The notes beneath the pieces were generated by a model, which had not been told where the DNA came from, made no database searches, and saw only the letters and a list, made by a program, of their open reading frames with translations. Shown in pieces: positions 11,439 to 39,232 of a stretch of 45,574 bases of DNA. The translations under genes were made by a program, and so were the position numbers. Within the stretch, counting starts at the first letter, position 1. Each line of letters starts with the position of its first letter. Source of the stretch: Deltaproteobacteria bacterium HGW-Deltaproteobacteria-19 (GTDB lineage: Bacteria; Desulfobacterota; Syntrophia; Syntrophales; PHBD01); NCBI GenBank assembly GCA_002841865.1, contig PHBD01000028.1, positions 1 to 45,574 of the forward strand, read 5' to 3'.

Positions 11439-11446
11439 CGGGCGGG

Positions 11447-11463
11447 CTGTTGAAAAACGCTCG
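11447..11463 (-). repeat. Isolated end of the interspersed repeat
   Basis: CTGTTGAAAAACGCTCG matches the terminal inverted repeat of copy B (11703-11719 read in reverse) at 16 of 17 bases, but the following sequence does not match the repeat body. Its terminal sequence lies only nine bases after the uppS stop. Confidence 0.55.
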
Positions 11464-11603
11464 CCTGCATCTCGGTATGACTGTGGGACGGTGAATCGGA
11501 CTCGTTCCCCGTGGAAACATCCCGGCTCGATGCACGGGATCGCCGGCAAGGAACGGAGGATTATTCGCCCATCGGTAAACAGCTGAATAGGTATTCAACC
11601 GGG

Positions 11604-11719
11604 CTGTTCAAAAATGCCCGGATGCAAGGCCCCCGAAATCCTGAGCCGCGAGTCGTACCCGTTCGTACGTCGAGTGGCGAAGGATGAGGGAAACGCAGCA
11701 GACGGGCGTTTTTCAACAG
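11604..11719 (+). repeat. Interspersed repeat with terminal inverted repeats, copy B
   Basis: The 116-bp element has a left end CTGTTCAAAAATGCCCG (11604-11620) and a right end CGGGCGTTTTTCAACAG (11703-11719) that are inverted copies with two mismatches. Similarity extends a few bases outward. An inner CGTAC-N6-GTACG hairpin is shared with copy A. Its right end abuts the ribosome-binding site of cdsA. It has no coding capacity and resembles a MITE. Confidence 0.8.
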
Positions 11720-11731
11720 ACCGGAGGTGTC

Positions 11732-12541
11732 ATGGCGAGTTCACACTTACAACGCTGGCTCACGGCGATCGTTGCCGTGCCGATCCTGTTCGCCCTGGTT
11801 CTTTTCGGCGGGGAGATACTCTTCTTCCTGCTGATCCTGGCCGTCGTCCTCCTCGGGATGGAGGAATACACCCGCATGTCCTTCGGGGAAGGGCATCCCT
11901 GGGAGCGATGGGAGGGGCTTCTCTTTGCCGGCGCGGTCTGCCTGGCCGCCCGGACCGGCGATCCCCGCGTCCTGATGGCCGTGGTCGCCTTCTCAATCCT
12001 GATTGCTTTCATGACATATCTGCCCCGGATCCGGGAGGAACACTTCGACATCCTCCCGGTGCAGAAGCTTGCCTTCGGCATCCTTTACATCCCCCTGATG
12101 ATGTCCCACATCATCATGGTCCGCCAGGCCCCGGACGGGGTCCTGTGGATCTTTTTCGTCCTTGTTCTGGCATTTTCGGGAGACGTGGCGGCCTATTACG
12201 TGGGCCGGACCTTCGGTCGGGGCAAGCTGCTCCCGCTCGTAAGCCCCGGGAAGACCGTCGAGGGGACCCTTGGACTGTTCGCCGGGAGCATCGTCTGCTG
12301 CCTCATCTACCGGCACTTTTTCCTGCCGGCCCTGCCGGTGGGGCACACGGTGGCCCTGGCCCTGGCCGGTAGCGTCATCGGGCAGCTGGGCGACCTCTGC
12401 GAGTCGGCCCTGAAGAGGGCCTCGGGAACGAAGGATTCGGGAACGCTCCTCCCCGGTCACGGAGGCTTCCTGGACCGCCTGGACTGCCTCATCTTCATCG
12501 GGCCGTTCGTCTACTACTACAAGCTGTTCCTTCTACCATGA
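11732..12541 (+). CDS. cdsA: Phosphatidate cytidylyltransferase
   Basis: The 269-residue multi-pass membrane enzyme makes CDP-diacylglycerol from phosphatidate and CTP. ATG 11732 is chosen because GGAGG lies 4-5 bases upstream; an in-frame ATG at 11684 lies inside the repeat and would add a repeat-encoded leader. Several hydrophobic helices are visible. The C-terminal family signature (S...KR...KD......PGHGG..DR.D) is complete as SALKRASGTKDSGTLLPGHG followed by GFLDRLD. It overlaps dxr by four bases (ATGA), which indicates coupled translation. Confidence 0.95.
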   Translation: MASSHLQRWLTAIVAVPILFALVLFGGEILFFLLILAVVLLGMEEYTRMSFGEGHPWERWEGLLFAGAVCLAARTGDPRVLMAVVAFSILIAFMTYLPRIREEHFDILPVQKLAFGILYIPLMMSHIIMVRQAPDGVLWIFFVLVLAFSGDVAAYYVGRTFGRGKLLPLVSPGKTVEGTLGLFAGSIVCCLIYRHFFLPALPVGHTVALALAGSVIGQLGDLCESALKRASGTKDSGTLLPGHGGFLDRLDCLIFIGPFVYYYKLFLLP

Positions 12542-13698
12542 AAAAACTGTCGATTCTCGGATCCACCGGATCCATCGGAACCAACTCCCTGGACGTGGTG
12601 CGGCGGAACCGTGACCGCTTCGACGTGGTTGCCCTTGCCGCGGGCCGCAACCTGAATCTGCTGAAAGAGCAGATCGCGGAGTTCGATCCGGAGGTTGTCT
12701 CCGTCATTGACGATGAACATGCCCGGCGCCTCCGGGAGATGGCTGGTCCGATTCGGGCGGACATCCTCTCCGGTACGGAAGGCTATTGCCAATGCGCCTC
12801 TGTCACGGGTGCGGACATGGTCCTGTCGGCCCTGGTGGGCGCGGCCGGGCTTCTCCCGACGATAGCGGCCATCGAGGCGGGAAAGGACATCGCCCTGGCC
12901 AACAAGGAGACCCTCGTCACTGCCGGGTCCCTGGTCATGGAGCGGGTCCGGGCGAAGGGAGTCCGGCTGCTTCCCGTGGACAGCGAGCACAGCGCAGTCT
13001 TCCAATGCCTCGAAGGGCAGCAGCACGGGGCTGTGCGGCGAATCGTGCTCACGGCATCGGGGGGGCCGTTTCTCCACCACAGCCGGGAGCAGATGGCGGC
13101 CGTCACCCCTGCGGAGGCCCTGAAGCACCCGAACTGGACCATGGGCCGCAAGATCACCATCGACTCGGCCTCCATGATGAACAAGGGGCTGGAAGTCATC
13201 GAGGCGCGGTGGCTCTTCGATGTGGATTACGACCGGATCGATGTGGTCATCCATCCCCGGAGCATCGTCCACTCCATGGTGGAGTTCCGGGACGGCTCCA
13301 TCCTGGCCCAGCTGGGCGTGCCGGACATGAGGATCCCCATCGCTTATGCGCTGACCTGGCCGGAGCGGATCCCCCAGCCGGGCTCTCTCCTCGACCTGAC
13401 CCGGGCGGGCGTTATCGAATTCCTGGATCCTGATCGGGAACGCTTTCCGAGCCTGGAGCTGGCCTATGCCGCCGGTCGGACAGGCGGGACCGCCCCGGCG
13501 GTCCTCAACGGGGCCAACGAGGTCGCTGTGGAGGCTTTCCTGAACGGAAGAATTCGCTTTACAGACATGGCGGCGACGATTAAAGAGGTTCTCTCCAGCC
13601 ACACAAAGGAGGACATCCGGACCGTCGAAGATGTCCTCCGGGCGGACCGCTGGGCCCGGGAAGAGGCCCAAACCATCATCGAGAGGCAAGGCGCTTGA
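12538..13698 (+). CDS. dxr: 1-deoxy-D-xylulose 5-phosphate reductoisomerase
   Basis: The 386-residue enzyme catalyses the second step of the MEP isoprenoid pathway, making 2-C-methyl-D-erythritol 4-phosphate with NADPH. The N-terminal GSTGSIGTNSLDVV is the nucleotide-binding loop. ANKETLV, VDSEHSAVFQCL, TASGGPF, NWTMGRKITIDSASMMNKGLE and ATG/NGANEVAVEAFL equivalents are present. The length is normal. It sits in the common uppS-cdsA-dxr-rseP order. ispG of the same pathway is at 22601. Confidence 0.97.
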   Translation: MKKLSILGSTGSIGTNSLDVVRRNRDRFDVVALAAGRNLNLLKEQIAEFDPEVVSVIDDEHARRLREMAGPIRADILSGTEGYCQCASVTGADMVLSALVGAAGLLPTIAAIEAGKDIALANKETLVTAGSLVMERVRAKGVRLLPVDSEHSAVFQCLEGQQHGAVRRIVLTASGGPFLHHSREQMAAVTPAEALKHPNWTMGRKITIDSASMMNKGLEVIEARWLFDVDYDRIDVVIHPRSIVHSMVEFRDGSILAQLGVPDMRIPIAYALTWPERIPQPGSLLDLTRAGVIEFLDPDRERFPSLELAYAAGRTGGTAPAVLNGANEVAVEAFLNGRIRFTDMAATIKEVLSSHTKEDIRTVEDVLRADRWAREEAQTIIERQGA

Positions 13699-14804
13699 TC
13701 GGCATCAGCATCATATCGGTCATTGTTCTCCTGGGTGTTCTCATCTTCGCCCACGAGCTGGGACATTTCCTGGCGGCCAAATGGGCCGGCGTCGGAGTCC
13801 TGAAGTTTTCCCTGGGCTTCGGCCGGAAGCTCTACAGCCGGAAAATCGGGGAGACGGAGTACCTGCTCTCCCTCGTCCCCCTGGGGGGATACGTAAAGCT
13901 CATGGGGGAATCGGAGGCGGAGCTTCTGCCGGAGGAAGAGCGCCATCGCTCCTTCTCGAACAAGTCCGTCTGGGTCCGGATGGGCATCGTCCTGGCCGGC
14001 CCGGTCTTCAACTTCATTCTGGCCATCCTGATCTTTACCGCCATTTACATGGCCGGCGTGCCGACCCTGACCAGCACGATCGGGTCCATCCAGGAAGGCT
14101 CGGCGGCCCTGGAAGCGGGGATGCTGCCGGCGGACACTGTGGTGGCCATCGACGGGAAGCCGGTACGCAAATGGGAGCACCTGGCGGAGATCATCAGTGC
14201 CAGCGGAGGCCGGACGCTCCGGATCACCGTGGATCGGGCAGGGATTCAGCAGGAGCTTTCCGTCACGCCCCGTTCGATGAAGGCAAAAAACCTCTTCGGA
14301 GAGGAGGTCGATTCCTGGAAGATCGGCGTCACACCTGACCCGAAGATCATGACGGAACGGCTGAATCCGGCCGAAGCGTTCTGGGTCGGCCTGAAGAAAA
14401 CATGGTACCTGAGTGAACTCACCCTGGTGAGCATCGTCAAGATCTTCGAAGGGGTCATCTCCCCGAAGACCCTGGGAGGCCCGATCTTCATCGCCCAGCT
14501 TGCCGGTGCCCAGGTCAAGGAAGGGCTGGTTCCCTTTTTCCTCCTGATGGCGCTGTTGAGCATCAACCTGGGAGTTCTCAACCTCCTGCCGATCCCGATT
14601 CTCGACGGCGGGCATCTCCTGTTCTATGTCATCGAAGCGGTCATTCGGCGGCCGGTGAGCATGAAAATTCGCGAAATCGCCCAGCAGGTGGGTTTTGCCT
14701 TTCTCATTCTCCTGATGGTCTTCGTGTTCGGGATGGACATCGATCGGCTCCTGGGAGACAACCCGATTTACGAAGGCTTCGTGCGCTTCTTTACCGGTAA
14801 ATAA
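13695..14804 (+). CDS. rseP: RIP metalloprotease RseP (site-2 protease family)
   Basis: The 369-residue inner-membrane zinc protease carries out regulated intramembrane proteolysis, typically releasing sigma factors by cleaving anti-sigma factors. Its start is TTG 13695, overlapping the dxr stop by four bases. HELGH at residues 20-24 is the catalytic zinc site. A PDZ domain occupies about residues 115-200 (GSIQEGSAALEAGMLPADTV). The second metal motif NLLPIPILDGGH lies in a C-terminal helix. It has one PDZ domain, as in many non-enteric RseP proteins. Confidence 0.94.
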   Translation: MIGISIISVIVLLGVLIFAHELGHFLAAKWAGVGVLKFSLGFGRKLYSRKIGETEYLLSLVPLGGYVKLMGESEAELLPEEERHRSFSNKSVWVRMGIVLAGPVFNFILAILIFTAIYMAGVPTLTSTIGSIQEGSAALEAGMLPADTVVAIDGKPVRKWEHLAEIISASGGRTLRITVDRAGIQQELSVTPRSMKAKNLFGEEVDSWKIGVTPDPKIMTERLNPAEAFWVGLKKTWYLSELTLVSIVKIFEGVISPKTLGGPIFIAQLAGAQVKEGLVPFFLLMALLSINLGVLNLLPIPILDGGHLLFYVIEAVIRRPVSMKIREIAQQVGFAFLILLMVFVFGMDIDRLLGDNPIYEGFVRFFTGK

Positions 14805-15526
14805 TGAAGATCCTGGCGCTGGACACGGCAACCAAGTCGGCTTCCGCGGCCCTCCTGGAGGATGAACGGGTCCTGGCGGAGGGGTACGCAGACCTGGGCC
14901 GCCACCACGCAACCGTTGTCCTTCCCTTCGTCCAGTCCATCCTCGATCTTGCCGGCATTCCCATCGAGGAGATCGATCTCCTGGCCGGAACGGCCGGTCC
15001 GGGTTCATTCACGGGACTTCGCATCGGGGCGGGAACCCTCAAGGGGCTGGCGCTGGCCACGGGAAAACCGATCGTGCCCGTCTCCACCCTGGAGACACTG
15101 GCCATGAATGCCGCCGGGGGCGGCATTCCCGTCTGCCCACTCCTCGACGCTCGCAAGGGACAGGTCTACGGAGCCATCTACCGTTTCGGCGAGACCGGCC
15201 TTCCCCATGCCGTGATCGCTGATGCAACGGTGCTCCTCGCGGATCTCCTGGACAAGATTTGCGAACCGGTCCTCTTTCTGGGCGAAGGGGCGGTCGTCCA
15301 TGCGGAGGCGATCCGGGAGAGGCTTGGCGAGAAAGCCTGTTTCGGCCCGCCCTTGCTGAACGGCATCCGGGCCTCCGCGGCTGGTTGGCTGGCGTTTCAC
15401 TACTATCGCGCGGGACGCTCCGCCGACCCGCTGACGTTCATCCCCGCCTATCTGCGACAGTCCGAAGCGGAAACGAAAGCTCCCCCGCCGGGTCATGGGG
15501 CGGGAGAGTGTGCGCTTCCCAAATGA
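14804..15526 (+). CDS. tsaB: tRNA t6A threonylcarbamoyltransferase complex subunit TsaB
   Basis: The 240-residue protein has an ASKHA fold: ILALDTATKSASAAL at the N-terminus, LAGTAGPGSFTGLRIG, and DARKGQVYGAIY. TsaB partners TsaD and TsaE in adding threonylcarbamoyl to A37 of ANN-decoding tRNAs. It starts inside the rseP stop (TAATG), so the five genes uppS to tsaB may share one mRNA apart from the repeat-filled uppS-cdsA gap. The last 20 residues look like an unconserved tail. Confidence 0.92.
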   Translation: MKILALDTATKSASAALLEDERVLAEGYADLGRHHATVVLPFVQSILDLAGIPIEEIDLLAGTAGPGSFTGLRIGAGTLKGLALATGKPIVPVSTLETLAMNAAGGGIPVCPLLDARKGQVYGAIYRFGETGLPHAVIADATVLLADLLDKICEPVLFLGEGAVVHAEAIRERLGEKACFGPPLLNGIRASAAGWLAFHYYRAGRSADPLTFIPAYLRQSEAETKAPPPGHGAGECALPK

Positions 15527-15560
15527 TCGCAGCGACAAGGCTCGCCGGGCCGGAACTCCG

Positions 15561-15587
15561 TTGACATCCGGGCTGATCTCGGATAAT
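15561..15587 (+). promoter_or_regulatory. Probable promoter of psd-pssA
   Basis: A perfect TTGACA (15561-15566) is followed by GATAAT (15582-15587) after 15 bases, or ATAATA after 16. This lies about 50 bases before psd in the 111-base gap after tsaB. The spacing is short for the best -10. Confidence 0.45.
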
Positions 15588-15637
15588 AGGCAAATCACAG
15601 TCCGGGTTTGGCCGTCACTTGTCGGGAGAGTGGATTC

Positions 15638-16276
15638 ATGAGCCGAAACAGTATCATCGTGCCGGAAGGCATCCCTTTTATCGCAGTCCCGGCCATTTTT
15701 GCCCTTACCTCCTGGTTTGCCGGTTACCCCGTCTCTGCGACCCTGCTCACGCTCATTACCGCCTTCGTCCTCTGGTTTTTCCGGAATCCCGAAAGAAAGA
15801 CCCCGGATGCACCGGGCCTCGTGATTTCTCCCGCCGACGGGAAGGTCATCTTCATCGGCGAGGCGGAAGAGGCGGATATCCTGAAGGGCCGAGCAAAGAA
15901 GATCTCCATCTTCATGAACGTGTTCAACGTCCACGTGAACCGCATTCCCTGTTCCGGGACGGTGGAGGGGATCCGCTACTACAAGGGGAAGTTTCTCGTG
16001 GCGAGCCTGGACAAGGCTTCCTCGGACAACGAGCGCAACGCCGTCCTGATCAGGACCGAGGACGGAAAAAAAATCCTGACGATTCAGATCGCCGGGTTGG
16101 TAGCCAGGAGGATCGTCTGCTGGCTGAAAGAGGGAATGAACGTAACCCGCGGCGAGCGTTTCGGGCTCATCCGGTTCGGCTCGCGGCTGGACGTCTTCCT
16201 GCCCCTGGAGTCCGCCATCTCCGTGAAAGTCGGAGACGTGACCCGGGCCGGGGAGACCCCCCTGGGGGTGCTTTAG
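15638..16276 (+). CDS. psd: Phosphatidylserine decarboxylase proenzyme (short type)
   Basis: The 212-residue short-form enzyme converts phosphatidylserine to phosphatidylethanolamine. The start at 15638 has GGGAG about ten bases upstream; the in-frame 15608 start lacks support. The self-processing site is RFGSRLD, with Ser182 the expected precursor of the pyruvoyl group. The VISPADGKVIFIGEAEE and FMNVFNVHVNRIPCSG blocks agree with the family. The next gene overlaps by one base and makes its substrate. Confidence 0.94.
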   Translation: MSRNSIIVPEGIPFIAVPAIFALTSWFAGYPVSATLLTLITAFVLWFFRNPERKTPDAPGLVISPADGKVIFIGEAEEADILKGRAKKISIFMNVFNVHVNRIPCSGTVEGIRYYKGKFLVASLDKASSDNERNAVLIRTEDGKKILTIQIAGLVARRIVCWLKEGMNVTRGERFGLIRFGSRLDVFLPLESAISVKVGDVTRAGETPLGVL

Positions 16277-29950: not shown

Positions 29951-30027
29951 CGGGGCGTAGCGCAGCTTGGTAGCGCGCCTGCTTTGGGAGCAGGATGTCG
30001 CAGGTTCAAATCCTGCCGCCCCGACCA
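29951..30027 (+). tRNA. tRNA-Pro (anticodon TGG)
   Basis: The 77-base cloverleaf has acceptor CGGGGCG/CGCCCCG, a D-arm with GCGC stems, and anticodon stem CCTGC/GCAGG. The loop is TTTGGGA, giving TGG at 29985-29987. The T-arm is GCAGG-TTCAAAT-CCTGC, followed by encoded ACCA. It is intact even though an island is inserted at its 3' end, because the element restores that end. Confidence 0.97.
30003..30027 (+). repeat. Left attachment site (attL), within tRNA-Pro
   Basis: The last 25 bases of the tRNA are repeated exactly at 37953-37977; identity ends at the next base on both sides. Confidence 0.9.
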
Positions 30028-31179
30028 TTATTTATCTTTAATATTCAGTAGGTTGGCTGTTTTGGAGGAGGCCTTTTTCGTTACCAAAGCGTTACCAGTT
30101 TCATAGATGGAACGGACCTCGTCCGATTCCACCCGGAAGTACCGCTCGAAGGCCTTCGATGTGCTGTGCATGGTGGCTCGTTTGATTTGCTCCGGTGAGA
30201 AACGGGCTCTCAATGCACGTGCCGAAGAATGGCGCGTTCCTCCGTAAAGATCCACGCCTTCAACGCCGAGATTTGCACAGGCTCGTTTCCACCAGTTGTA
30301 AAGAACGTGCTGGCCGAACGGTGTACCCTCCTTGAACCCCGATCCCTTGACGTGGCGAAAGAACGGAATGTCCGGTTTGATCGCCTTCGGGAATTGACCA
30401 AGTAGTTCAATGTCCTCCTGGATCAACGGGACCGATTTGAACCGCTTCTCTTTGGGGTGCGGGAAGTATAGATAGCCGTTGCCCAGGTCGATGTTTCCTT
30501 CTTCGAGAGAAATCATTTCCCCCGGGCGGACTGAAATGTAGGTGCAAAGGAATTTGATCGCCAGCCATATTTTAGGATTGTAGCTTGAGATCCGGCGTAT
30601 TTCTTCCACTATCGCCGTCTGCATCTCCTTATCCACCGTTTTCCTGTACCCGAGTTCGGGGGTGTCCAAAGGAAATTTTGGGATGGGGATTCCGGTTGTA
30701 TCGCTGGCCCAGGACCAGAAAGCTCTCAATGCGCGGATGTAATTTTCTTTCGTCTTTGCTGCACAGGTCAGGGAAAATTTGAAATCCTCCAGCTCTGCAT
30801 AACCAATCTCACGGATATTTCGGTTTCCCCATCTGTCCGATGTCATGCGGGCTACCAACTCGAGTATTTTGATGTAGCCGTGCTTCCGATCCGCCGCCTT
30901 CTTTCGCTCGATCCACTTTTCAATCAGATTGCTGAATCCGAGCGGTTTATCCTTCCGGTAATCCTTGTCGTCAAAAGATCCTTCATCCGTTTTGAAGCGA
31001 AGGCCTGTCAGGAACCTGCATGCCGCATCGTATGATTTAAAACGCTGGTGGACCTTCCCGAACCGCACCGAAAATTTTGTTGCTCTGTGACGACAACAGA
31101 CAAGGCCGTCCCTGTGATTGTCAACGAATTTCCCCCCACATGAGGGGCACCGCTCATCAGAGTAGATTCCGCCTTTCAT
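30028..31179 (-). CDS. Tyrosine recombinase / integrase with N-terminal zinc finger
   Basis: The start at 31179 has GGAGGTGAT upstream; the frame continues to 31233 but without such support. The 383-residue protein begins with CPSCGGKF...LVCCRH, a likely zinc finger (Cys11, Cys14, Cys28/29, His31). A SAM-like core-binding region follows (about 75-170), then the catalytic domain. Catalytic candidates are Arg218 (SVRPGEM), Arg316 (GGTRHSS), His338 and Tyr347 (MHSTSKAFERYF). The His normally three before the second Arg is replaced by Gly. The stop codon TAA directly abuts the attL core, so the gene ends exactly at the element boundary. It should catalyse integration at, and excision from, tRNA-Pro. 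Confidence 0.9.
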   Translation of the reverse strand: MKGGIYSDERCPSCGGKFVDNHRDGLVCCRHRATKFSVRFGKVHQRFKSYDAACRFLTGLRFKTDEGSFDDKDYRKDKPLGFSNLIEKWIERKKAADRKHGYIKILELVARMTSDRWGNRNIREIGYAELEDFKFSLTCAAKTKENYIRALRAFWSWASDTTGIPIPKFPLDTPELGYRKTVDKEMQTAIVEEIRRISSYNPKIWLAIKFLCTYISVRPGEMISLEEGNIDLGNGYLYFPHPKEKRFKSVPLIQEDIELLGQFPKAIKPDIPFFRHVKGSGFKEGTPFGQHVLYNWWKRACANLGVEGVDLYGGTRHSSARALRARFSPEQIKRATMHSTSKAFERYFRVESDEVRSIYETGNALVTKKASSKTANLLNIKDK

Positions 31180-31277
31180 GCACAAATCACCTCCGTTAAA
31201 GAGGTGGGTATCATTTCGCACGGCTGAAATCAATGGACGGCACCTTGAACGCGGATTTGCTTACCCTTTCCCTTTCT

Positions 31278-31634
31278 TCATTCTTCCCAGGCCAACATGT
31301 ATACGATCCCTCGCTCCGGTTTCTCCGGGAGGTCAGAAAATGATGCTTTCACGCTTTCCCACGGCTGGCTATCTATCACGTAATCCCCCTCACAATCAGG
31401 GTACGGGCAGAAAAGCATTTCATATGCATCCGTCACGTTGTATTTGAACGATCCCGTCGGATACGCTCGCCAACAATGCTCGCAATGCTTCCATTTACCG
31501 GGTTCATCACCCTCAGAACCCCCTTTGATTTGCTGATACATGTGATGATTGAAACCCGATTCAACGAACCGCCAGCCTTTCTCTTTCTCTCTCCGCGCCT
31601 TTCTTCTCTGAATCCTCGATGTTCCTCTCTTCAT
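31278..31634 (-). CDS. Small zinc-ribbon protein of unknown function
   Basis: The 118-residue product starts at 31634, with AGGAGGA seven bases upstream. The N-terminus is very basic (KRGTSRIQRRKARREKEKG). A later CEHC...MLFCPYPDC arrangement suggests a zinc ribbon, so nucleic-acid binding is plausible. I do not recognise the family. It lies between integrase and rep on the same strand, so it may act in replication or excision control of the island. Confidence 0.65.
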   Translation of the reverse strand: MKRGTSRIQRRKARREKEKGWRFVESGFNHHMYQQIKGGSEGDEPGKWKHCEHCWRAYPTGSFKYNVTDAYEMLFCPYPDCEGDYVIDSQPWESVKASFSDLPEKPERGIVYMLAWEE

Positions 31635-31700
31635 TGCTAATCCTCCTGTAATTGTTTGATTTAGCACACGATGTGCTTTGATTCCGTTTTCCTTCATCGA

Positions 31701-33071
31701 TTAGTGAACCACCCCACAACGGACCCTATCAGCTGTCATCGGGGATTCGGCCTGATCAAAGACCCGCTCCCAATGGACCCACCGTGCAAGCTCCTCAAGG
31801 AGGCCCAGGGCTTTTGCCGTCATCCGGCACTGATAGCCCTGGCCCTCGACATATACGGGATTATAAAGGGCTCTGGTGGCTTCAAAGGGTACTTCCACGA
31901 TCATGCCCAGGCGCCTACCGTTGATATCGGCCTGGACATAGGTTCTCTGTCCACAGCCGTCCAAAATGGCTTCATAGCTGAACGGTTTCTTTGCGCTCTT
32001 CAAATCCGTGACTTGCTCGTCCGAATTTGCTTTTGCGATCTCCTCGAAAAATCCCGCCACTTCCCGGAACGCTTCCTCTTCATCCACGATCTCCTCCGTT
32101 CCGTTGTCCCTGATCTCCTCATGGGCTCCATCTGCCGGGCAGGGATAGAAGACCATCCGACGGACGCGCCGTTTCAGGTTCTTCTTCATGTCTTCGGGAA
32201 GCTCCGTCTGATATTTCTTCCCCTTCTCGAAGTACCCCTTTTCGGCAAAGTAGCCGGCAATGCTGTTCCAGTGCTTTTGATCCCTGAAATACGTTTCCTT
32301 CACGATCCCGTGCGGCCAGGCCCAATGAAGCCGCTTTCCTCCGATCATTCCTTCCCGGCCTTCGCTCTTGACCTCGATCAACAGGTGCCAATGGGGATAA
32401 CCATCCCGGTAGAATTCCAGGACAGACATGACTTTCGTGATCTTCACCGGCTCGTGCTCATAGGCCCATCTTCCGCCCAGCTTGACCTTTCGCCCCTCCC
32501 TCAGTTTGCGCACGAATGCCGACACGCTCTTTTTGTCCCGGATCGTTTCCAGGGCATCAAGGCCGCTGCTGAATTTCTCGCGATCGACGGTGAGGATTAC
32601 GTGGCGGGTTCTTGCGTAATCGAACGTACGGATTTGCTGCTTATACCGGGGAACGTAGAAGAGCTTGTGACAGCTGGGACACCAGACGGACCTGCACCGG
32701 CAATTTCCGACCTTGACCGGCAACCGGGGTTCCGTCGATCCGGTGACGTCCTCGATTAAGGAATCAAGGACTTCTTTTCCATCTCTCTGCCCGCAGTCTC
32801 TGTTTAAAGCAAGAATAGGGGGCCGATACGGAGCGATCCTTGCCCATTCCGGATCCTGCGGGCGGTTCTCCTTTTGAACCAGTTTCGCAACGGGCTTGCC
32901 GCCCTTGTTTTCAATGACTTCGACAAGGTTTTCGTTGGTGTTGCTTCCGAGAGCAGAAATACCCTCAATGTCATCGGGGATTACCCATCTGCTCTTGCGC
33001 GCGCCCGCCTGCGGCCGCTCCACCGCCGCGGCCGCGGCCGCGATCCCTTCCAAACGATCTCTTACAGACAT
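31701..33071 (-). CDS. HUH-type rolling-circle replication initiator (Rep)
   Basis: The start at 33071 is favoured by AGGAGAGG upstream; the frame runs to 33107. The 456-residue protein has a CRCRSVWCPSCH zinc cluster (Cys124, 126, 131, 134). The HUH motif is in GYPHWHLLIEV (His227, His229), and about 45 residues later comes AGYFAEKGY with Tyr274, Lys278 and Tyr280 as nicking-tyrosine candidates. This order (Cys cluster, HUH, Tyr-Lys) is that of rolling-circle plasmid and phage Rep endonucleases. It should nick an origin in the element and start replication after excision. The acidic stretch GTEEIVDEEEAFREV follows. I cannot tell whether one or two tyrosines act. Confidence 0.82.
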   Translation of the reverse strand: MSVRDRLEGIAAAAAAVERPQAGARKSRWVIPDDIEGISALGSNTNENLVEVIENKGGKPVAKLVQKENRPQDPEWARIAPYRPPILALNRDCGQRDGKEVLDSLIEDVTGSTEPRLPVKVGNCRCRSVWCPSCHKLFYVPRYKQQIRTFDYARTRHVILTVDREKFSSGLDALETIRDKKSVSAFVRKLREGRKVKLGGRWAYEHEPVKITKVMSVLEFYRDGYPHWHLLIEVKSEGREGMIGGKRLHWAWPHGIVKETYFRDQKHWNSIAGYFAEKGYFEKGKKYQTELPEDMKKNLKRRVRRMVFYPCPADGAHEEIRDNGTEEIVDEEEAFREVAGFFEEIAKANSDEQVTDLKSAKKPFSYEAILDGCGQRTYVQADINGRRLGMIVEVPFEATRALYNPVYVEGQGYQCRMTAKALGLLEELARWVHWERVFDQAESPMTADRVRCGVVH

Positions 33072-33201
33072 AAAAAACCTCTCCTGGTTGTTCCAGAAGA
33101 GGTTCATTGACAGACGCTGCTCTGTACGGTACTTGATGCACAGATCCTTTCCGGTGTGTCGTCCCTGCCAGGGGTTTTGACTCTTCTGGAATGTGATTCA
33201 G

Positions 33202-33234
33202 AAAGTCCGGCATGCGCCAACATGACCGGGCTTT
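33202..33234. repeat. Imperfect palindrome between rep and the RHH gene
   Basis: AAAG-T-CCGG-CATG (33202-33214) pairs with CATG-A-CCGG-G-CTTT (33221-33234), loop CGCCAA. On the plus strand a TTTCGTTTTT tract follows. It is either a terminator for plus-strand transcripts entering the rep region or a candidate nick-site hairpin for Rep. Confidence 0.5.
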
Positions 33235-33241
33235 CGTTTTT

Positions 33242-33511
33242 CTATTTGTTGACCTTCCAATCCCCCTTCTTGTTCAGCGTCAGCCTGCCGCCCACGATAT
33301 CCGTAAGAAACTTTTCGCGGACATATCGTTCGATCTTCGCCACTTTCATGAGAGGCGTTTTGTTGAGGATTTCCGCATCCTCAAGACCAGTCATGATCAG
33401 GTTGCGCATGAGCTGGCTTCGGCTCAAGTCCATTTCCGCCGCCAGGCGGTCAATCCTTTCGATCACATCGTCTTCGATTTGGACGGTGTATTGCTTGCGC
33501 GGTCTTTCCAT
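33242..33511 (-). CDS. Ribbon-helix-helix (CopG-like) transcriptional regulator
   Basis: The 89-residue protein follows an AAGGAGGA ribosome site. Residues 6-45 (KQYTVQIEDDVIERIDRLAA, then EMDLSRSQLMRNLIMTGLED) form the strand-helix-helix pattern of Arc/CopG dimers. It is the first gene behind the consensus promoter at 33544-33571, upstream of rep. CopG-family proteins repress rep in rolling-circle plasmids, so copy-number or excision control is a reasonable inference. The C-terminus is basic. Confidence 0.82.
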   Translation of the reverse strand: MERPRKQYTVQIEDDVIERIDRLAAEMDLSRSQLMRNLIMTGLEDAEILNKTPLMKVAKIERYVREKFLTDIVGGRLTLNKKGDWKVNK

Positions 33512-33543
33512 TTCGTCCTCCTTCGTCTCCTGTGTTGTGGAGG

Positions 33544-33571
33544 ATTATACTTTCATTGAATCCATTGTCAA
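33544..33571 (-). promoter_or_regulatory. Consensus sigma-70 promoter of the RHH-rep-int module
   Basis: On the minus strand TTGACA (+ 33566-33571) and TATAAT (+ 33544-33549) are both perfect, 16 bases apart. GGATT and AATCC form an inverted repeat spanning spacer and -10, a possible operator for the RHH protein. Confidence 0.8.
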
Positions 33572-33607
33572 GTATTTTTCGTTCCCCCCCGCCTTGCGCC
33601 GCCTTGT

Positions 33608-33687
33608 AGCAAGAGCGCCCCGCACGTCAAGGCTTCCCCTTCGGGCTCGCTTCGCTCGGCCTTGACTTGCGGGTCTTGCTCTTGCTG
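33608..33687. repeat. Large imperfect palindrome behind the rep-module promoter
   Basis: AGCAAGAGC, CCCGCA and GTCAAGGC on the left (33608-33633) pair with GCCTTGAC, TGCGGG and GCTCTTGCT on the right (33659-33686). That gives 23 pairs with small internal loops and a 25-base C/T/G-rich loop. GC-rich flanks (CCCCCGCC near 33587, GGCGGGG near 33712) could extend it. I see no gene in 33512-33927. It may be a replication origin or another structural element of the island. Confidence 0.6.
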
Positions 33688-33927
33688 GTTGGAAATCAAC
33701 GACGGCGGGGAGGGTGCGACAAGAACGCTCAGACAAAGAGGGTTTTGCTGTTGTACTTTGGTGTCCACTCTCGGTGGTGGCCCTGCCTTAAGCTCTTCTT
33801 GAAGTTAGTAGATCTGAATGTGTTTAGTGATTCAGGTTTTCAAAAGGTAATTTGGGCACATAATTGTCTTGCGTTTTTTGACTCGACTCCCTACCATCGA
33901 CCCACCTTTTCTTATAGGAAGATCGCG

Positions 33928-34263
33928 ATGAGATTTCCGCAGTCGATTAGCGTCAGGATGTTGCTTTTTTTTCTTCTGTTCGCATTCCTGGCGTCGATCT
34001 TCGCAGAAAGCCTGAACGAATTCAGCAGTAGATTCGTCAAGGTTAAGGCTATCGTTAATCACGCCCAGTCTGGGAATGTTTCTGCCGAAGGTGGCCTTCG
34101 TTTAAAATGCGATTATCTTGACAAGGCTCTTCAAGATCGTTGGCGATTCGACAATTCGCAGATTGCCGTATATTCATTGCTTTCCTTAGGGTCTGGAAGT
34201 CCCAAAGAAACCCGCCTTCCCACCAAGTCAGACCGCGCACCTCCGGAAGCCTCTCTTTCGTAA
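33928..34263 (+). CDS. Possible small exported protein, unknown
   Basis: An ATG at 33928 with AGGAAGA upstream opens a 111-residue frame. It starts MRFPQSISVRMLLFFLLFAF and continues LASIFAES, a good signal-peptide shape, and then has no recognisable domain. The open frame extends upstream to 33667 through the palindrome flank, which is unlikely to be coding. Overlapping minus-strand frames exist, so coding status is uncertain. From 34264 to 34543 I see nothing definite. Confidence 0.3.
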   Translation: MRFPQSISVRMLLFFLLFAFLASIFAESLNEFSSRFVKVKAIVNHAQSGNVSAEGGLRLKCDYLDKALQDRWRFDNSQIAVYSLLSLGSGSPKETRLPTKSDRAPPEASLS

Positions 34264-34543
34264 GCAGCCCCAACTGAACATCCATCAACTGCCCCGGGTG
34301 CATCATTCCGGCTGGTTGTCTCGGACGAATTGACACGCATGCGTGACACTGTCCACAGGGATGTTTACACGATAAAACCCCCGCTCCACATATGAACATT
34401 TTCCATTGCCCGAAGCTAAGGGATGGACAGAATGGAGAGAAAACGTAAGCTGCTTAAGAAACGGCGAGCAGCGTCAGAAGACGCTATGAAGAGGATTGAT
34501 CCTAAACTTTAAATTTAAATGTATACAAGGAAGGAGATAAACC

Positions 34544-34732
34544 ATGGATGGAACCATTTCCGAGATGATTGTTCTTCTCGTCATTGCTCTGATTATTGTC
34601 GCCGTCGTCATCATACCCAGTTCGAAGAAAAAGGCGGGAAATGAGAGAAAGATTTTAAACCAGGGGAAGGAAGAAGCATCATCCAAAGTGGTGGAATCGC
34701 AGGATCCAGCAAACCGCAAGAAGAAGGGATAG
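34544..34732 (+). CDS. Small single-pass membrane protein
   Basis: The 62-residue protein has a strong ribosome site (AAGGAGAT). An N-terminal membrane helix (about residues 5-26, SEMIVLLVIALIIVAVVIIP) is followed by a highly charged Lys/Glu tail ending in KKKG. There is no recognised family. It is the first gene of the cargo side and lies 418 bases before the antiporter. Confidence 0.6.
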   Translation: MDGTISEMIVLLVIALIIVAVVIIPSSKKKAGNERKILNQGKEEASSKVVESQDPANRKKKG

Positions 34733-34913
34733 TTGGTGTTATAGCTTTTGATTAACTCTGGCACTTGTGGAAATCAGACAACAGCAGGGATCATACTATG
34801 AGATAATTCAGACAAAGAGACTGCCACATCAGGTGTCTTGGACAATTTGAGATCTCCTTAGGAGTAATCTTCAAGATCGTGCCTCAGTCAGAAATCCACG
34901 GGGTCCATTTCCC

Positions 34914-34942
34914 TTGACACGCAAAACTGTCCATCCTATCTT
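34914..34942 (+). promoter_or_regulatory. Probable promoter of the antiporter-Usp pair
   Basis: TTGACA (34914-34919), 17 bases, TATCTT (34937-34942). It lies in the 418-base gap 34733-35150 and implies a leader of about 200 bases. I see no terminator or further gene in that gap. Confidence 0.6.
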
Positions 34943-35150
34943 GCACAATAAGATCAAGATATTCAGCAAGATTAGGTGCTGGTGACAGGTACACTGATTC
35001 GCGGTCGTTACGACACAATTGAAGAGAGAAAGGGCAGGACGGTCCTATTCTAAAAAACACCGGAAAGAGGGATTTTCAGCTGCCGATGATTAATCAATGA
35101 CGATTCGCTGTTTGTATTAAGAGATACGCCGCTCATGGAAGGCGGAAACG

Positions 35151-36836
35151 ATGAATGAATTGAACATACTTATTACATTCGCCGGAGGCCTTGCAGCGGC
35201 CCTGGTATTTGGCTATATCGCCCACCACCTGAAAATTCCCCCCCTCGTGGGTTACCTTCTGGCAGGTATTCTCGTAGGTCCCCACACTCCGGGCTTCGTC
35301 GCTAACCGCGAGGTGGCAGAGCAGTTCGCCGAAATCGGCGTCATTCTGTTACTCTTTGGAATTGGCCTGCGTTTTCACTTGCGTGAGTTGTATGCCGTCT
35401 GGCGGGTGGCCGTGCCTGGTGCTTTGATCCAGAGCACAATGTCAACGGTCACACTGATGCTGTTGCTTTACCTAATGGGTTGGAACTGGATCTCCGGACT
35501 GATTCTTGGAATGGCGATCTCGGTTGCCAGCACAGTTGTCATGGCCAGGGTTTTGGCCGAGTGGCATGATCTCCATGCCCAGATCGGACACATAGCAATC
35601 GGCTGGACAGTCGTCGAAGACATCCTCACAGTTCTCATGCTCTTGCTCTTGCCCATCATCTTTGCCACGGGCGGCACCACGAGTCACAGCATCGGGTATG
35701 TTCTTGGACTTGCAGCTCTGAAGGTCGCCGGTTTGGTAGCTGTCGTTGTCGTTCTAGGACTGTGGGTCATTCCCTGGGCGTTGGAGCGTATCGAAAAGAC
35801 CCATTCCCGTGAACTCTTCACCCTGGCAGTACTAGTCCTGGCCGTAGGGATCGCCGTCAGTTCCGCTAAGTTCTTTGGCGTGTCGATGGCTCTCGGAGCG
35901 TTCCTTGCTGGGCTTGCTGTTGGTCGCTCAGACTTTGCCGCTCGGGCGGCTGGTGATGCTGTGCCGATGCGCGACGCCTTCGCTGTTCTTTTCTTCGTAT
36001 CGGTCGGCATGCTCTTCGACCCCCGGAGTCTCCTCCAATCACCACTGGCTATTGTCATGGTGCTGGTCGTGGTGATCATCATCAAGCCATTGGCCGCCAT
36101 GTTGACCGCTCGCATTCTTGGCAAACCCATGATGATAGCCGGTCCGGTTGGGGCAGCATTTTCACAGGTGGGTGAATTCAGCTTTATCCTGGGCGTGGTC
36201 GCTCTCCAATTGGAACTGCTCAACGATACTGGATGGAATGCCCTAGTGACTGCATCAATCATCTCGATAGCCCTGAATCCGTTTATCTATCGTTGGGCTC
36301 GCCTCAGGTCTACAAGGGTGGCAAAGATCCCGATTACCCAAAAGGCACGACCCAGGATCGAACCAAACAACTGCATTCTAGTCGGCTATGGACCGGTGGG
36401 AAAGATCGTATATGAAATTCTCTCCGAACGCGGCACCGACGTCACAGTGATCGATCTCAATCTGGACACGGTCCGCCGGCTGCGAGCCGACGGGAAAAAG
36501 GCACTGTATGGCGATGTTCTACGGCCGGATACATTGGATGAAGCCGGTATCGCGTCGGCAGGTCGTTTTATTCTCAGTACAGATGTAGAGAATGCAGCGG
36601 AAATCATCAGGCAAGCGCGTCTCCTGAACCCGGACCTTAAGGTTCTTGCACGTTGCGCCCATCTACGTGATGCAGCCTCACTGAGGCATGCTGGTGCCGA
36701 GATCGTCGCTGCGGGTGAAGCCGAAGTGGGGGTCGCTCTGGCTGAAGCGCTGGCGGATGAGGACGAGATGGCTTGCGGTGTTACCTCCGCTAATAGAGAA
36801 GCCATTCGAAATGCCCTTTATGATATACCAGGGTGA
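35151..36836 (+). CDS. Monovalent cation:proton antiporter, KefB/YbaL type with TrkA-N domain
   Basis: The 561-residue CPA2 transporter has about 12 hydrophobic helices (residues 1-385), including VGYLLAGILVGPHTPG, FGIGLRFHLREL and SVASTVVMARVL. A cytosolic Rossmann RCK/TrkA-N domain follows (about 400-520) with ILVGYGPVGKIVYEIL and VIDLNLDTVRRLRADGKKALYGD. Length and architecture match E. coli YbaL more closely than KefB/KefC. It should exchange K+ or Na+ for H+, gated by a nucleotide bound to the RCK domain. GGAAGG precedes the ATG. The stress-protein gene follows after 25 bases, so they are probably co-transcribed. Confidence 0.9.
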   Translation: MNELNILITFAGGLAAALVFGYIAHHLKIPPLVGYLLAGILVGPHTPGFVANREVAEQFAEIGVILLLFGIGLRFHLRELYAVWRVAVPGALIQSTMSTVTLMLLLYLMGWNWISGLILGMAISVASTVVMARVLAEWHDLHAQIGHIAIGWTVVEDILTVLMLLLLPIIFATGGTTSHSIGYVLGLAALKVAGLVAVVVVLGLWVIPWALERIEKTHSRELFTLAVLVLAVGIAVSSAKFFGVSMALGAFLAGLAVGRSDFAARAAGDAVPMRDAFAVLFFVSVGMLFDPRSLLQSPLAIVMVLVVVIIIKPLAAMLTARILGKPMMIAGPVGAAFSQVGEFSFILGVVALQLELLNDTGWNALVTASIISIALNPFIYRWARLRSTRVAKIPITQKARPRIEPNNCILVGYGPVGKIVYEILSERGTDVTVIDLNLDTVRRLRADGKKALYGDVLRPDTLDEAGIASAGRFILSTDVENAAEIIRQARLLNPDLKVLARCAHLRDAASLRHAGAEIVAAGEAEVGVALAEALADEDEMACGVTSANREAIRNALYDIPG

Positions 36837-36861
36837 GATAAGATGAAAAGAGAGGGTAGTA

Positions 36862-37680
36862 ATGAAGAACAGATTTATCGTATTGATTGATTTCTCAGCT
36901 TATTCAAAACACCTCATTCAATTTGCCTATGACTGGAGTCAAAGAGCGAATGCTGAAATACTTCTGGTTCACCATGTTGTTGCATTATATCCAGTCATGA
37001 CACCTTATGAAGTCAAGATTAAACTTATAGGTGATGCCACCAGAAAAGCTGGGGAAAAGTTAAAAAAGTTGATTAAAGCCGTTCTTCCAGAAGGAACAGC
37101 AGTCAGATCAATTGTTTCTGACAGCAATCTAATCGTGATTTTGAAACAGTTGCTTGGAGAACCATACAACAATTTATTGTTTCTTGGCATCAAGGGAACG
37201 GGTTTGATGAAGAAGATATTCATTGGGAGTCAGGCTGTAGAAATAATAAACTATATTAACAACTTGATCGTGGTCATGCCTGAAAATGCCGCCTGTTGTG
37301 CTCCGAATGTTATCCATGTCGCAGTTCAAAGAGATTATCCGCTGAACATTGATGAATTCAATAATTTCTTGGGCTTTCATACAGAAAAATCAAGCAGGCT
37401 TGTCTTCTTCTCCGTTATGATGCCCGGCGACGACCAATACTCAATTGAACAATATTTGAAAGAGTTGACGGAACTATACGTCGATAAATTCAATGTATCT
37501 CATGAACTGTACTTAGGAAAAAAAGCATTGAAATCTCTCAGAGAAGTGATTCTAAAAAAGCAGAATGAATTCGTTGTAGTTCAAAGAGGATCGAGAATGT
37601 TGTTGACGGATGTCTTTAGAAAATTTCTGATCAATGAACTTGTTTATGAAGGGAATACGCCATTAGTTATCGTGCCGTGA
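36862..37680 (+). CDS. Universal stress protein with two tandem Usp domains
   Basis: The 272-residue protein starts MKNRFIVLIDFSAYSKHLIQ, the typical Usp N-terminus. The first domain holds the ATP-binding G2xG9xGS motif in LGIKGTGLMKKIFIGSQA. The second, degenerate domain runs from about residue 145 to PLVIVP. Codon use is strikingly AT-rich compared with the core genes, so this gene was recently transferred. Usp domains often regulate linked transporters. Joint cargo with the antiporter suggests sensing of ATP or stress to control ion flux, an inference from context only. Confidence 0.85.
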   Translation: MKNRFIVLIDFSAYSKHLIQFAYDWSQRANAEILLVHHVVALYPVMTPYEVKIKLIGDATRKAGEKLKKLIKAVLPEGTAVRSIVSDSNLIVILKQLLGEPYNNLLFLGIKGTGLMKKIFIGSQAVEIINYINNLIVVMPENAACCAPNVIHVAVQRDYPLNIDEFNNFLGFHTEKSSRLVFFSVMMPGDDQYSIEQYLKELTELYVDKFNVSHELYLGKKALKSLREVILKKQNEFVVVQRGSRMLLTDVFRKFLINELVYEGNTPLVIVP

Positions 37681-37871
37681 AGAAAGAAACCATCACGATG
37701 GACGGATCATCGCCGGCAAATGAATTCAATACCGTTTTCCTGGTTTCGCTCCTTGGCATGGGATTGCTAAAGGGTTCGAATTCTGATGTCAAATAACGAG
37801 TCCTCGTGCTTTTGTCAGTTCTTTGTCATTATCAATAACATACATGTATAATCAATAGGTTATGCTGTCGT

Positions 37872-37892
37872 GTGCGGGTTCGACTCCCGCAC
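37872..37892 (+). other. tRNA T-arm-like fragment near the right end of the island
   Basis: GTGCGGG-TTCGACT-CCCGCAC is a perfect seven-pair stem with a consensus T-loop, followed by CCACTTTACCA. No D-arm or anticodon arm is found upstream, so it is not a complete tRNA. It differs from the tRNA-Pro repeat 60 bases further on. It may be the scar of another tRNA-targeted insertion. Confidence 0.45.
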
Positions 37893-37952
37893 CCACTTTA
37901 CCATTTTATTACCAGAACCACAGCTAAGGCAGATTTGACGGGTCATGTAAGG

Positions 37953-37977
37953 GGTTCAAATCCTGCCGCCCCGACCA
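37953..37977 (+). repeat. Right attachment site (attR)
   Basis: Exact 25-bp copy of the tRNA-Pro 3' end (30003-30027). The surrounding sequence cannot form a tRNA. Confidence 0.9.
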
Positions 37978-37987
37978 GACATTTCAG

Positions 37988-38017
37988 AAGGCTGTGAGGC
38001 GACTTGCAGCCTTTTTT
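37988..38017 (+). terminator. Intrinsic terminator beyond attR, probably the native tRNA-Pro terminator
   Basis: AAGGCTG (37988-37994) pairs with CAGCCTT (38007-38013), and six Ts follow (38012-38017). It lies ten bases from the attR core. Before island insertion it would have lain just after the tRNA CCA. Confidence 0.75.
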
Positions 38018-38065
38018 CATGGAGCGAGGTGAGATTCCTTGCCTTTTCCCGTCGCGTTCTGTAGG

Positions 38066-38095
38066 TTGCCGGCAATATCAGCAAAGGGTTACAAT
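38066..38095 (+). promoter_or_regulatory. Probable promoter of the lipoprotein gene
   Basis: TTGCCG (38066-38071), 18 bases, TACAAT (38090-38095). It lies only about 20 bases before the start codon, so the leader would be very short. Confidence 0.4.
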
Positions 38096-38113
38096 CTTTT
38101 ACAGGAGGAGATC

Positions 38114-38515
38114 ATGAAGATCAGAACCATTGGTTTATCGGGATGGGTTTTCGCTGTTGCCGCATTCTGTTTCCTTTTCATCCAGGGATGCGCGCAGGAT
38201 ACCCGCCCCAAGTTCCAGACGGAATACCAGGCAATCATGCTGGCGGGCGGCCAGGCTGTGTTCGGGAAGGCGGAATACGTGGGAAAGGACTACATCCTGC
38301 TGAAGGACGTTTTCTACATCCGCAGCCAGGTCAACCAGGAAACGAAGCAGGTAACGAACATCCTGATCAAAAAGGGCCAGGAACTGCACGGGGCGGAGCA
38401 GATGTACATCAATACCCGCCACATCGCCGTGATCGAGCCGGTCTCCCCGGAATCGCAGGTAGCCAAGCTGATCAAGGAGAAGAAGGCTCAGAGTCCGGAG
38501 GGGCAGAAGCCGTAG
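38114..38515 (+). CDS. Small putative lipoprotein, unknown function
   Basis: ATG 38114 follows AGGAGGAG; the frame extends upstream to 38039 without support. The 133-residue product begins with a basic and hydrophobic signal peptide ending FLFIQGCAQD, a plausible lipobox with the lipidated Cys about residue 26. The mature part is soluble and Lys/Glu-rich at its end (LIKEKKAQSPEGQKP), with no family I recognise. An IS256-like remnant begins just after the stop, so the C-terminus could have been altered by that insertion. Confidence 0.75.
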   Translation: MKIRTIGLSGWVFAVAAFCFLFIQGCAQDTRPKFQTEYQAIMLAGGQAVFGKAEYVGKDYILLKDVFYIRSQVNQETKQVTNILIKKGQELHGAEQMYINTRHIAVIEPVSPESQVAKLIKEKKAQSPEGQKP

Positions 38516-38526
38516 GTTGTGTCAAG

Positions 38527-39113
38527 AATCTTTCGCTTTTATAGTGGCAGTGCCCATCGGGGTTCTAGATCGCCTCTGCTATTTCGATATCCTGATTCAG
38601 GCCCTGTTCTTTGAGCAGATCCATGTTCAGGTACCGTCGTGATCCCCATTGGGTTCCGGCCACGTGCCGGAGCCGGGCCGCGCAGAGCATGAGAGCGGGA
38701 TGACCACCGGGGAAGGCGCCCACAACCCGGGTGCGTCGCCGGATCTCCTTCATGATCCTCTCCAGGGCATTGTTGGTCCGGATCCGGATTCGGTGCTCCC
38801 GGGGAAAGTCGTAGAACGAAAAGGTCTCCAGAATCGATTCCCGAACCTTCTTCGCCGCTTCCCTGAGCTTCAAGGCCTCCAGCTTGTCCGCCTCCGCTTC
38901 CAGCAGAGGATTCAGTGTCTTTTCCTCCGTGCTCCGCACCATCTCCCCCATGTGGCTCTTGATCGCCCCTTCATTTAACCGGATGATTTCCCCTTGTTAT
39001 TGTGTATAATTCTTCTCCACGGCAGTCTCCTTCCTTCGGCAGGTTGTGTTGTCGTGACGTTAATCCGACCCGTGTTGGGCACTGCCGTGCTACTTCAAAA
39101 AAGCGAAAGATTT
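38527..39113 (-). mobile_element. Internally deleted IS256-family element
   Basis: Inverted ends AATCTTTCGCTTTT (38527-38540) and AAAAGCGAAAGATT (39100-39113) are exact. Just inside them are GGCAGTGCCC and GGGCACTGCC. The true tips probably lie a few bases further out (GTGTCAAG on the left). The interior carries only a deleted transposase. Confidence 0.75.
38565..38951 (-). pseudogene. IS256 (mutator-type) transposase, catalytic core deleted
   Basis: Full IS256 transposases are about 400 residues. Here 128 remain. GEMVRSTEEKTLNPLLEAEADKL, which matches the family N-terminus, is joined directly to KLREAAKKVRESILETFSFYDFP and the C-terminal RTNNALERIMKEIRRRTRVVGAFPGG with RLRHVAGTQWGSRRYLNMDLL. 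The DDE core between is missing. A stop codon lies in frame about 16 codons upstream of the ATG. The product cannot be an active transposase. Confidence 0.85.
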
Positions 39114-39232
39114 TTACGTTATCAAAAAAATCAATATAGACGGCTGGTTTCACCGATCGGGAATCGGATGGAGGGAGCGGGCGCATGGTGACGCACCGGC
39201 CGGCAGTGTGGATCGCATAGGGAGGACATCCA

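Follow-up and report, generated by a model that had tools for sequence, protein, structure and literature searches.

The window analysed here is a stretch of 45,574 nucleotides from Deltaproteobacteria bacterium HGW-Deltaproteobacteria-19, a member of the Syntrophales in the Desulfobacterota (assembly GCA_002841865.1, contig PHBD01000028.1, positions 1 to 45,574), and our subject is an island of about 8 kb within it (30028-37977), which adjoins the 3′ end of a tRNA-Pro gene. We consider this island to be most likely an integrative rolling-circle element, a plasmid-like entity that would reside in the chromosome at a tRNA gene's 3′ end, and judging from its genes it most likely resembles the non-canonical integrative and mobilizable elements (IMEs) and Tra-less forms of the actinomycete integrative and conjugative elements (AICEs). 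Its architecture, its precise insertion and its modular relatives are established below by sequence comparison. Beyond a preliminary description of this DNA, we observe two interchangeable families of replication initiator (Rep), exchange of cargo, and a conserved hairpin at the border between cargo and backbone.

The island at the tRNA-Pro gene

The sole tRNA gene that ARAGORN finds in the window, tRNA-Pro(TGG) at 29951..30027 on the plus strand (also Rfam RF00005), is the target, and its 3′ end is preserved: the last 25 bases (attL, 30003..30027, plus strand) recur exactly as attR at 37953..37977 on the same strand, at a spacing of 7950 bp. All six duplicated 20-mers of the window stem from this repeat, no other 20-mer being doubled, and the GC content is 0.50 inside the island versus 0.61 in the rest of the window. 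The only genome of the same genus in our set, G020, matches the left flank of the window at 89% and provides an empty site, in which a terminator-like inverted repeat comes directly after the tRNA-Pro gene, ahead of a homologue of the window from 39125 onwards. In the window this inverted repeat (37988..38017, plus strand) lies past attR, about 7950 bp from its original place beside the tRNA. From this comparison, the block was either inserted in the lineage of the window or precisely lost in G020, and because the terminator is displaced beyond attR, insertion at tRNA-Pro is the plain reading. The exact repeat and the precise ends confirm the preliminary description, which had an island in tRNA-Pro bounded by 25-bp att repeats, and the empty tRNA-Pro site that it proposed to look for in relatives is the one present in G020.

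The backbone genes share the minus strand in the order RHH-Rep-(CxxC protein)-Int, with Int abutting attL. The integrase (30028..31233, start codon uncertain) adjoins the tRNA-Pro gene and shares 57% identity with its counterparts in G106 and G107; of the zinc-finger tyrosine integrase described earlier, the integrase itself (phrog_1, E 8e-23) and an N-terminal CxxC motif hold up, with a Pfam score below cut-off. The neighbouring 139-aa protein (31278..31697), formerly a zinc-ribbon protein, does have CxxC motifs and looks like a zinc ribbon by eye, but it has no family match in profile searches and no homologue among the compared loci. Then follows the initiator (31701..33107), here called Rep type 1, which is REP_ORF2-G2P-like in Pfam (E 2e-4, below cut-off). 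The first gene of the backbone operon (33242..33511) encodes a ribbon-helix-helix (RHH) protein, which scores over the RHH_1 cut-off as expected of the CopG-like regulator that had been proposed. Between it and the hairpin lies a sigma-70-type promoter-like site, TTGACA-16-TATAAT (33544..33571, minus strand), that matches 12 of 12 positions; it is a consensus match only, from a scan that found 3 sites against 1.8 expected.

The earlier assignment of Rep as an HUH-type initiator does not reach the Pfam cut-off, but is supported by its relatives and by a predicted model. Across five relatives of Rep type 1, P238-H-W-H241 and Y286/Y292 are invariant, corresponding to the HUH motif and the downstream catalytic Tyr. 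The predicted structure has a mean pLDDT of 50.6 overall, with a core (residues 161-280) mostly at 71-92, and it yields 19 matches at E ≤0.001 in a viral structure library, of which the named ones are ORF2/G2P or replication-associated. The best PDB match is the wheat dwarf virus Rep at E 0.024, and VIA-align places 2x3g on top (Z 7.8) and the Helitron 7lcc at Z 6.0, under the tool's trust level, with S6-type folds close behind. Phage and plasmid records hold no match to Rep; IMG/VR gave pattern matches, yet no relative confirmed with a single protein or alignment.

The cargo occupies the attR end on the plus strand. A KefB/YbaL-type CPA2 antiporter with a TrkA_N domain (35151..36836), as claimed before, is borne out by Na_H_Exchanger and TrkA_N matches over cut-off, its best NCBIfam being YbaL at 430 bits, under that family's cut-off of 700. 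For a "tandem Usp" beside it (36862..37680) we find no support: the protein has one recognised Usp domain, over cut-off, in a single Pfam-matched stretch, its second half is unrecognised, and no likeness between the halves could be detected, their score being equalled in 96 of 500 shuffles. A 62-aa open reading frame (ORF) with a hydrophobic stretch (34544..34732, plus strand) has weak sub-cut-off matches only and is an uncertain gene. Profile searches of the window ORFs tested gave no match to phage structural or conjugation families, in agreement with the reported lack of such genes, and none to RepL.

Past attR, a further stretch of the window (38040-39124) is missing from G020 as well; it encodes a protein of 158 aa as well as a truncated transposase of the Mutator family and is a difference separate from the island.

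Relatives at other sites and their modules

Surveys of 155 genomes of the class and a sample of 395 genomes of the phylum place the window element among relatives at other sites. Rep type 1 matches occur in 5 of the class genomes. The Int-Rep pair adjoins the tmRNA gene in both G106, which also has the RHH gene, a 28-nt repeat 7744 bp apart and cargo unlike that of the window, and G107, whose contig ends within Rep. The integrase profile gave 28 matches in 23 class genomes, from which 8 short fragments were dropped, leaving 20 loci for examination. Exact repeats of 25-32 nt, 3904 to 7950 bp apart, are found in eight of these loci, at tRNA-Pro (window, L049), tmRNA (L007, L048, L051), tRNA-His (L057), tRNA-Val (L059) and, in L050, at a tRNA-Pro 3′-end sequence where no tRNA was called. 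A Rep lies just upstream of Int in 11 of the 20 loci, including all eight bounded by repeats: type 1 in the window, L007 and L048, and a second type, Rep2, in L049, L050, L051, L057 and L059 (in L008, L055 and L063 a Rep lies beside Int and no repeats were found). The preliminary description had proposed to search relatives for such a gene set beside different tRNAs and to compare cargo; int-rep sets with different cargo are thus present at tRNA-Pro, tRNA-His, tRNA-Val and tmRNA.

Rep2 shows weak matches to Rep_trans, Phage_CRI or phage replication-initiation families, all below cut-off, with no such Pfam match for the Rep2 proteins of L057 and L063. The idea that the two Rep profiles represent one family was rejected, and because their comparison returned a probability of 0 we call them unrelated at this sensitivity. 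RHH homologues are present in elements with either Rep. The phylum sample holds the integrase in 16 of 395 genomes; from these 17 matches we set aside the window's own, two already examined and one fragment, which left 13 further loci. Among these, L103 has Rep2 and 34-nt repeats 8161 bp apart at tRNA-Pro(GGG) (7602-15763), and L112 has Rep2 and 25-nt repeats 3926 bp apart at tmRNA.

The modules have been combined in different ways. In the integrase tree the window, with Rep type 1, pairs with L049, with Rep2, both being at tRNA-Pro (support 98/93), and the well-supported branches force at least two changes of Rep label. The cargo differs likewise: L048 carries a C-5 methylase (Dcm), an HNH protein and Vsr, L049 carries TrkH and a 4HB_MCP protein, L051 a ParA-like ATPase, and the cargo proteins tested in L050 and L057 have no family match. 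The TrkH/4HB_MCP pair reappears in L139, a locus found via the hairpin that lies beside tRNA-Arg and has Rep2 and an unrelated integrase; between L049 and L139, identity is 77% for TrkH, 68% for 4HB_MCP and 40% for Rep2, and 20% for the integrases. In L141, Usp is accompanied by a C-5 methylase/BsuBI-PstI fusion enzyme and by a protein that looks Vsr-like by eye. Taken together, these comparisons suggest one family of small mobile elements whose parts are freely recombined. As a separate observation, L136, L137 and L139, which have a different integrase, have in common a protein of about 499 aa after Rep2, with no Pfam match, and one of about 330 aa before it.

The window element may also preserve a trace of another site. 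A T-arm-like relic, of a tmRNA or tRNA 3′ end, lies 55-80 bp inward of attR (37872..37898, plus strand), scoring 16.6 bits against the Rfam tmRNA model, far under the gathering threshold of 47. The possibility that it copies a tRNA of this genome or class was rejected, no second copy being found at ≤2 mismatches in the own genome or in the 155 class genomes. The att repeats at tmRNA in L007, L048 and L051 contain its core, CGGGTTCGACTCCCGC, too, and the relic is possibly a former tmRNA att site, as if the cargo end had once bordered another site.

The hairpin between cargo and backbone

A three-tier hairpin of about 79 nt (33608..33686, minus strand, which is the rep strand), recognised by fold scan and covariation, marks the border between cargo and backbone. 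The fold scan of ten bounded elements found a similar hairpin in six (window, L007, L048, L049, L050 and L057), always directly ahead of the first backbone gene. Folded as DNA, the hairpin region of the window has a z-score of -3.60, with 1 of 200 shuffles as low. In the alignment of the six sequences 93.2% of cells pair, against 28-46% in slid controls, a share that is favoured because the structure was chosen from the same sequences. Both sides have changed in 8 of 27 pairs, and shuffles did as well in 0 of 500 cases in four of five measures and in 49 of 500 in the fifth. The core of the tip reads GCGAAGC or ACGAAGT; d(GCGAAGC) is an unusually stable DNA mini-hairpin.

A covariance model of the hairpin has hits in 10 of the 155 class genomes at E 0.01. 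In 12 of the 13 class loci at E ≤2e-11 the hairpin precedes a Rep, of one family or the other, that shares its strand and lies no more than about 1.2 kb away; the exception is a solitary hairpin by tRNA-SeC (L140 in G074). Outside the six sequences of the model, six of seven new loci precede a Rep (Rep2 in L135-L139, an L048-like Rep in L141). In the phylum sample matches occur in 9 of 395 genomes at E 1e-4, and 11 of the 14 non-window matches fall in ten regions that we examined, of which two, from one genome, precede a protein of about 330 aa and Rep2, and one (L164) precedes a PF03432 relaxase. By this distribution the hairpin is tied to rolling-circle elements within the class, not clearly beyond. 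The own genome carries, in addition, a partial copy of the hairpin region by tRNA-SeC on contig C25 (L143, 9150-9274), 125 bp long and 90% identical to window 33622-33746.

A related hairpin occurs in rolling-circle plasmids. A blastn search with one hairpin against plasmids returned 160 records, 149 of them from Staphylococcus and none exceeding 80% of the query. The RepL plasmids pT48, pSAM1 and pSK3 have the hairpin upstream of rep on the same strand and score 51.5, 37 and 35.6 bits with the covariance model; these values are no independent draw, because the plasmids were chosen through their blastn matches. Elsewhere, R. palustris pRPA scores 39.5 bits and a Paraburkholderia plasmid 30.6, and pT181 and pC194 have no hairpin match. 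According to PMC5703833, pSN2 plasmids have a recognisable double-strand origin (dso) and ssoA, a single-strand origin (sso), and an sso works in one orientation only. We rejected the hairpin as ssoA itself, since the stretch of pT48 that resembles pT181, presumably ssoA/palA, is at 184-351 and the hairpin at 1659-1736. Hairpin patterns had 0 matches in IMG/VR, and the blastn matches in phages (5 records of 20-23 nt, 4 of them Halorubrum virus inside an ORF) were taken as chance.

Which function could such a structure have? As it occurs with two Reps that are unrelated, a nick site specific to one Rep is unlikely to be its whole role, and a second-strand start recognised by the host fits best. 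One could instead regard the hairpin as an operator or promoter structure, or a transcription insulator, that acts on double-stranded DNA and is no single-strand replication signal, an alternative that we rate as quite possible without favouring it. It would agree with the position just upstream of the backbone operon and of the 12/12 promoter-like site, and with the existence of solitary hairpin copies without Rep. The 3′ arm also contains a -35-like TTGAC, after which the mean -10-like score is higher (4.07, n=14) than on the mirror side (2.35, n=17; null 2.55), but this test comprises just 18 sequences, 4 of them without a forward -35 match, and 11 of the 14 "TG" matches come from the conserved stem itself; the pattern is no more than suggestive. 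The constant orientation to Rep in the 12 class cases is compatible with either function. As an intrinsic terminator of the usual kind the hairpin was rejected, since neither of its flanks has a T-run in any of the six model elements; a terminator scan flagged a 5-pair site within its span, in a region with 4 sites against 2.3 expected.

Competing explanations and known systems

If the island is an integrative rolling-circle element, its life cycle may be pictured as follows. The integrase would excise a circle; the RHH protein would repress the backbone promoter, for which the strong promoter-like TTGACA-16-TATAAT is the candidate; and Rep would nick an origin and drive rolling-circle replication, perhaps doubling as a relaxase for a helper. 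On the exposed single strand the folded hairpin would act, most likely as a second-strand priming or promoter site, or else as one component of the Rep origin. Integration of the circle into a tRNA or tmRNA gene of a new host would follow, and new combinations could arise when cargo is exchanged on one side of the hairpin and the Rep and int modules are exchanged on its other side. We infer the steps of excision, replication and transfer.

A number of observations weigh against this interpretation. The circle, its excision and its replication are predicted from protein families, of which the two central ones score below their Pfam cut-offs in the window: the integrase with 19.1 bits for Phage_integrase (cut-off 27.1) and Rep with 22.1 bits for REP_ORF2-G2P (cut-off 27.8). 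Neither Rep is present at 9 of the 20 class loci that use this integrase family, and the 13 further phylum loci have Rep2 in only two cases and Rep type 1 in none. On the integrase tree, whose bootstrap had not settled, the Rep labels show modest clustering (values as low in 32 and 27 of 500 shuffles). The hairpin is absent from L051 and L059, two of the eight repeat-bounded class elements, and from L103 and L112, and of the ten phylum regions that contain it, one is near integrase-like genes and in six the profiles used recognised no mobile gene. Finally, the own genome has no PF02534 (VirD4-type coupling protein), TcpA/FtsK-type helpers not having been searched for; as it also lacks Zot, no resident helper was found.

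One alternative is a non-canonical IME in the strict sense, in which Rep would be the relaxase, the conjugation pore of a helper would mobilise the element, and replication would be secondary. We hold this to be a serious possibility, short of an even one, and it is in part a sub-case of the integrative rolling-circle reading, not its opposite. According to PMC5704250, 118 of 144 streptococcal IMEs have relaxases related to rolling-circle initiators (Rep_trans/MobT, Rep_2, PHA00330, Viral_Rep), 35 of these 118 without a coupling protein, and in L164 the hairpin precedes a relaxase; the missing PF02534 in the own genome, within the limit just given, speaks against it. The window element fits the definition of an IME in having its own integration module and precise ends (integrase, 25-bp att, empty site in G020). 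It shares with streptococcal non-canonical IMEs (PMC5704250, PMC5357655) a tyrosine integrase, sites at gene 3′ ends including tRNA, Rep_trans or other rolling-circle initiators, and modular exchange. It differs from them in its phylum, its REP_ORF2-G2P-like Rep type 1 and the border hairpin common to its relatives, and the window ORFs tested gave no TcpA/FtsK-like or relaxase-named match.

With AICEs of the pSAM2 type (PMC3218068), the element has in common the combination of integrase and rolling-circle initiator, tRNA targets, the order att-cargo or tra-rep-int-att, and the exchange of rep and int modules between elements. It has the tyrosine integrase and rolling-circle Rep at a tRNA that define them, but the FtsK/SpoIIIE-type Tra that also defines them has no match among the window ORFs tested; moreover, its Rep is unrelated and its phylum another. 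Staphylococcal plasmids of the pSN2 family (RepL) are alike in having a related hairpin ahead of rep, on the rep strand, and unlike in their RepL, which the window lacks among its matches, and in the absence of an integrase from their listed features. The DSO-gene-SSO cassettes of staphylococcal plasmids (qacC, lnuA) likewise have cargo bordered by a replication signal and swapped between replicons (PMC5037232), but they lie between two origins on free plasmids, and here the cargo lies between a hairpin that is a putative signal and an att site.

The main rival is a satellite derived from an inovirus, or an inovirus without capsid genes, in which Rep would be inoviral, the morphogenesis genes would have been replaced by cargo, a helper would package the single-stranded circle, and the hairpin would be the packaging signal; we think it improbable. 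The Rep type 1 family is common to inovirus-type loci and the element. A relative about a third identical, in G140, belongs to a locus with secretin and Zot over the Pfam cut-off, L015 (the Smac51 chromosome) has a Zot-like neighbour by eye, and L010 has a relative of RHH. L103 unites the integrase family of the window with Rep2, its 34-nt repeats, a weak coat-B-like protein of 50 aa and, by eye, a pIII-like/pVI-like pair, and possibly links inoviruses with integrated Rep elements; its coat match is below cut-off and not the best E-value of that protein, and no Zot-like ORF was seen there. Zot is confined to 4 of the 155 class genomes and is absent from that of the window, and structural genes, which inoviruses have, are not found in the window. 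The hairpin is absent from the inovirus loci L010, L015 and L081-L084 and from L103 (E up to 10) and a related one is present in RepL plasmids, by which we lowered its candidacy as a packaging signal. The inovirus-type Zot loci L081, L082, L083 and L084 are those of G030, G037, G035 and G140, and the neighbours of three of them resemble, by eye, a DNA polymerase III alpha gene and a dnaJ-like gene, which suggests a preferred insertion place; in L015 the inovirus-like block seemingly occurs twice in tandem, about 10 kb apart, judging from repeated ORFs. That the island is dead, once mobile but by now fixed in place with its genes for ion transport and stress, we also find implausible: its single copy with no sign of recent movement, the T-arm-like relic inside attR and the truncated transposase in the 1.1 kb past attR, also missing in G020, would agree with decay, but int, Rep, RHH and cargo frames are intact and the att repeats identical over 25 bp.

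The earlier statement that such an element belongs to no named class has to be toned down. Descriptions exist of integrated elements that combine an initiator of the rolling-circle type with few conjugation genes or none: in streptococci they are known as non-canonical IMEs, and in actinobacteria, where they have Tra, as AICEs (PMC5704250, PMC5357655, PMC3218068). What still stands is that the family differs from the known systems in phylum, Rep type 1, absence of Tra, and hairpin. The PMC literature searched contains no paper found to name it, papers beyond that being possible, and the exact hairpin letters are absent from the papers that a text search of it returned. A more far-reaching proposal, which we put forward tentatively and regard as somewhat doubtful, is that the phylum harbours an unnamed family with interchangeable att/int, at least two unrelated Reps, and cargo arranged around one single-strand hairpin, which would serve both as a Rep-independent second-strand start (a folded single-stranded DNA promoter) and as the joint for cargo swaps, shared in outline with staphylococcal rolling-circle plasmids.

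It is easy to dismiss a small integrated element as a junk island when it has neither phage nor conjugation genes. Those described here occur in several families of the class and carry genes for potassium transport, restriction-modification and stress, and much of the gene flow among anaerobes that resist cultivation could take this route. The hairpin offers a probe by which such elements may be found without knowledge of Rep or integrase, and it makes possible a direct test of cargo exchange and of second-strand start in single-stranded DNA elements.

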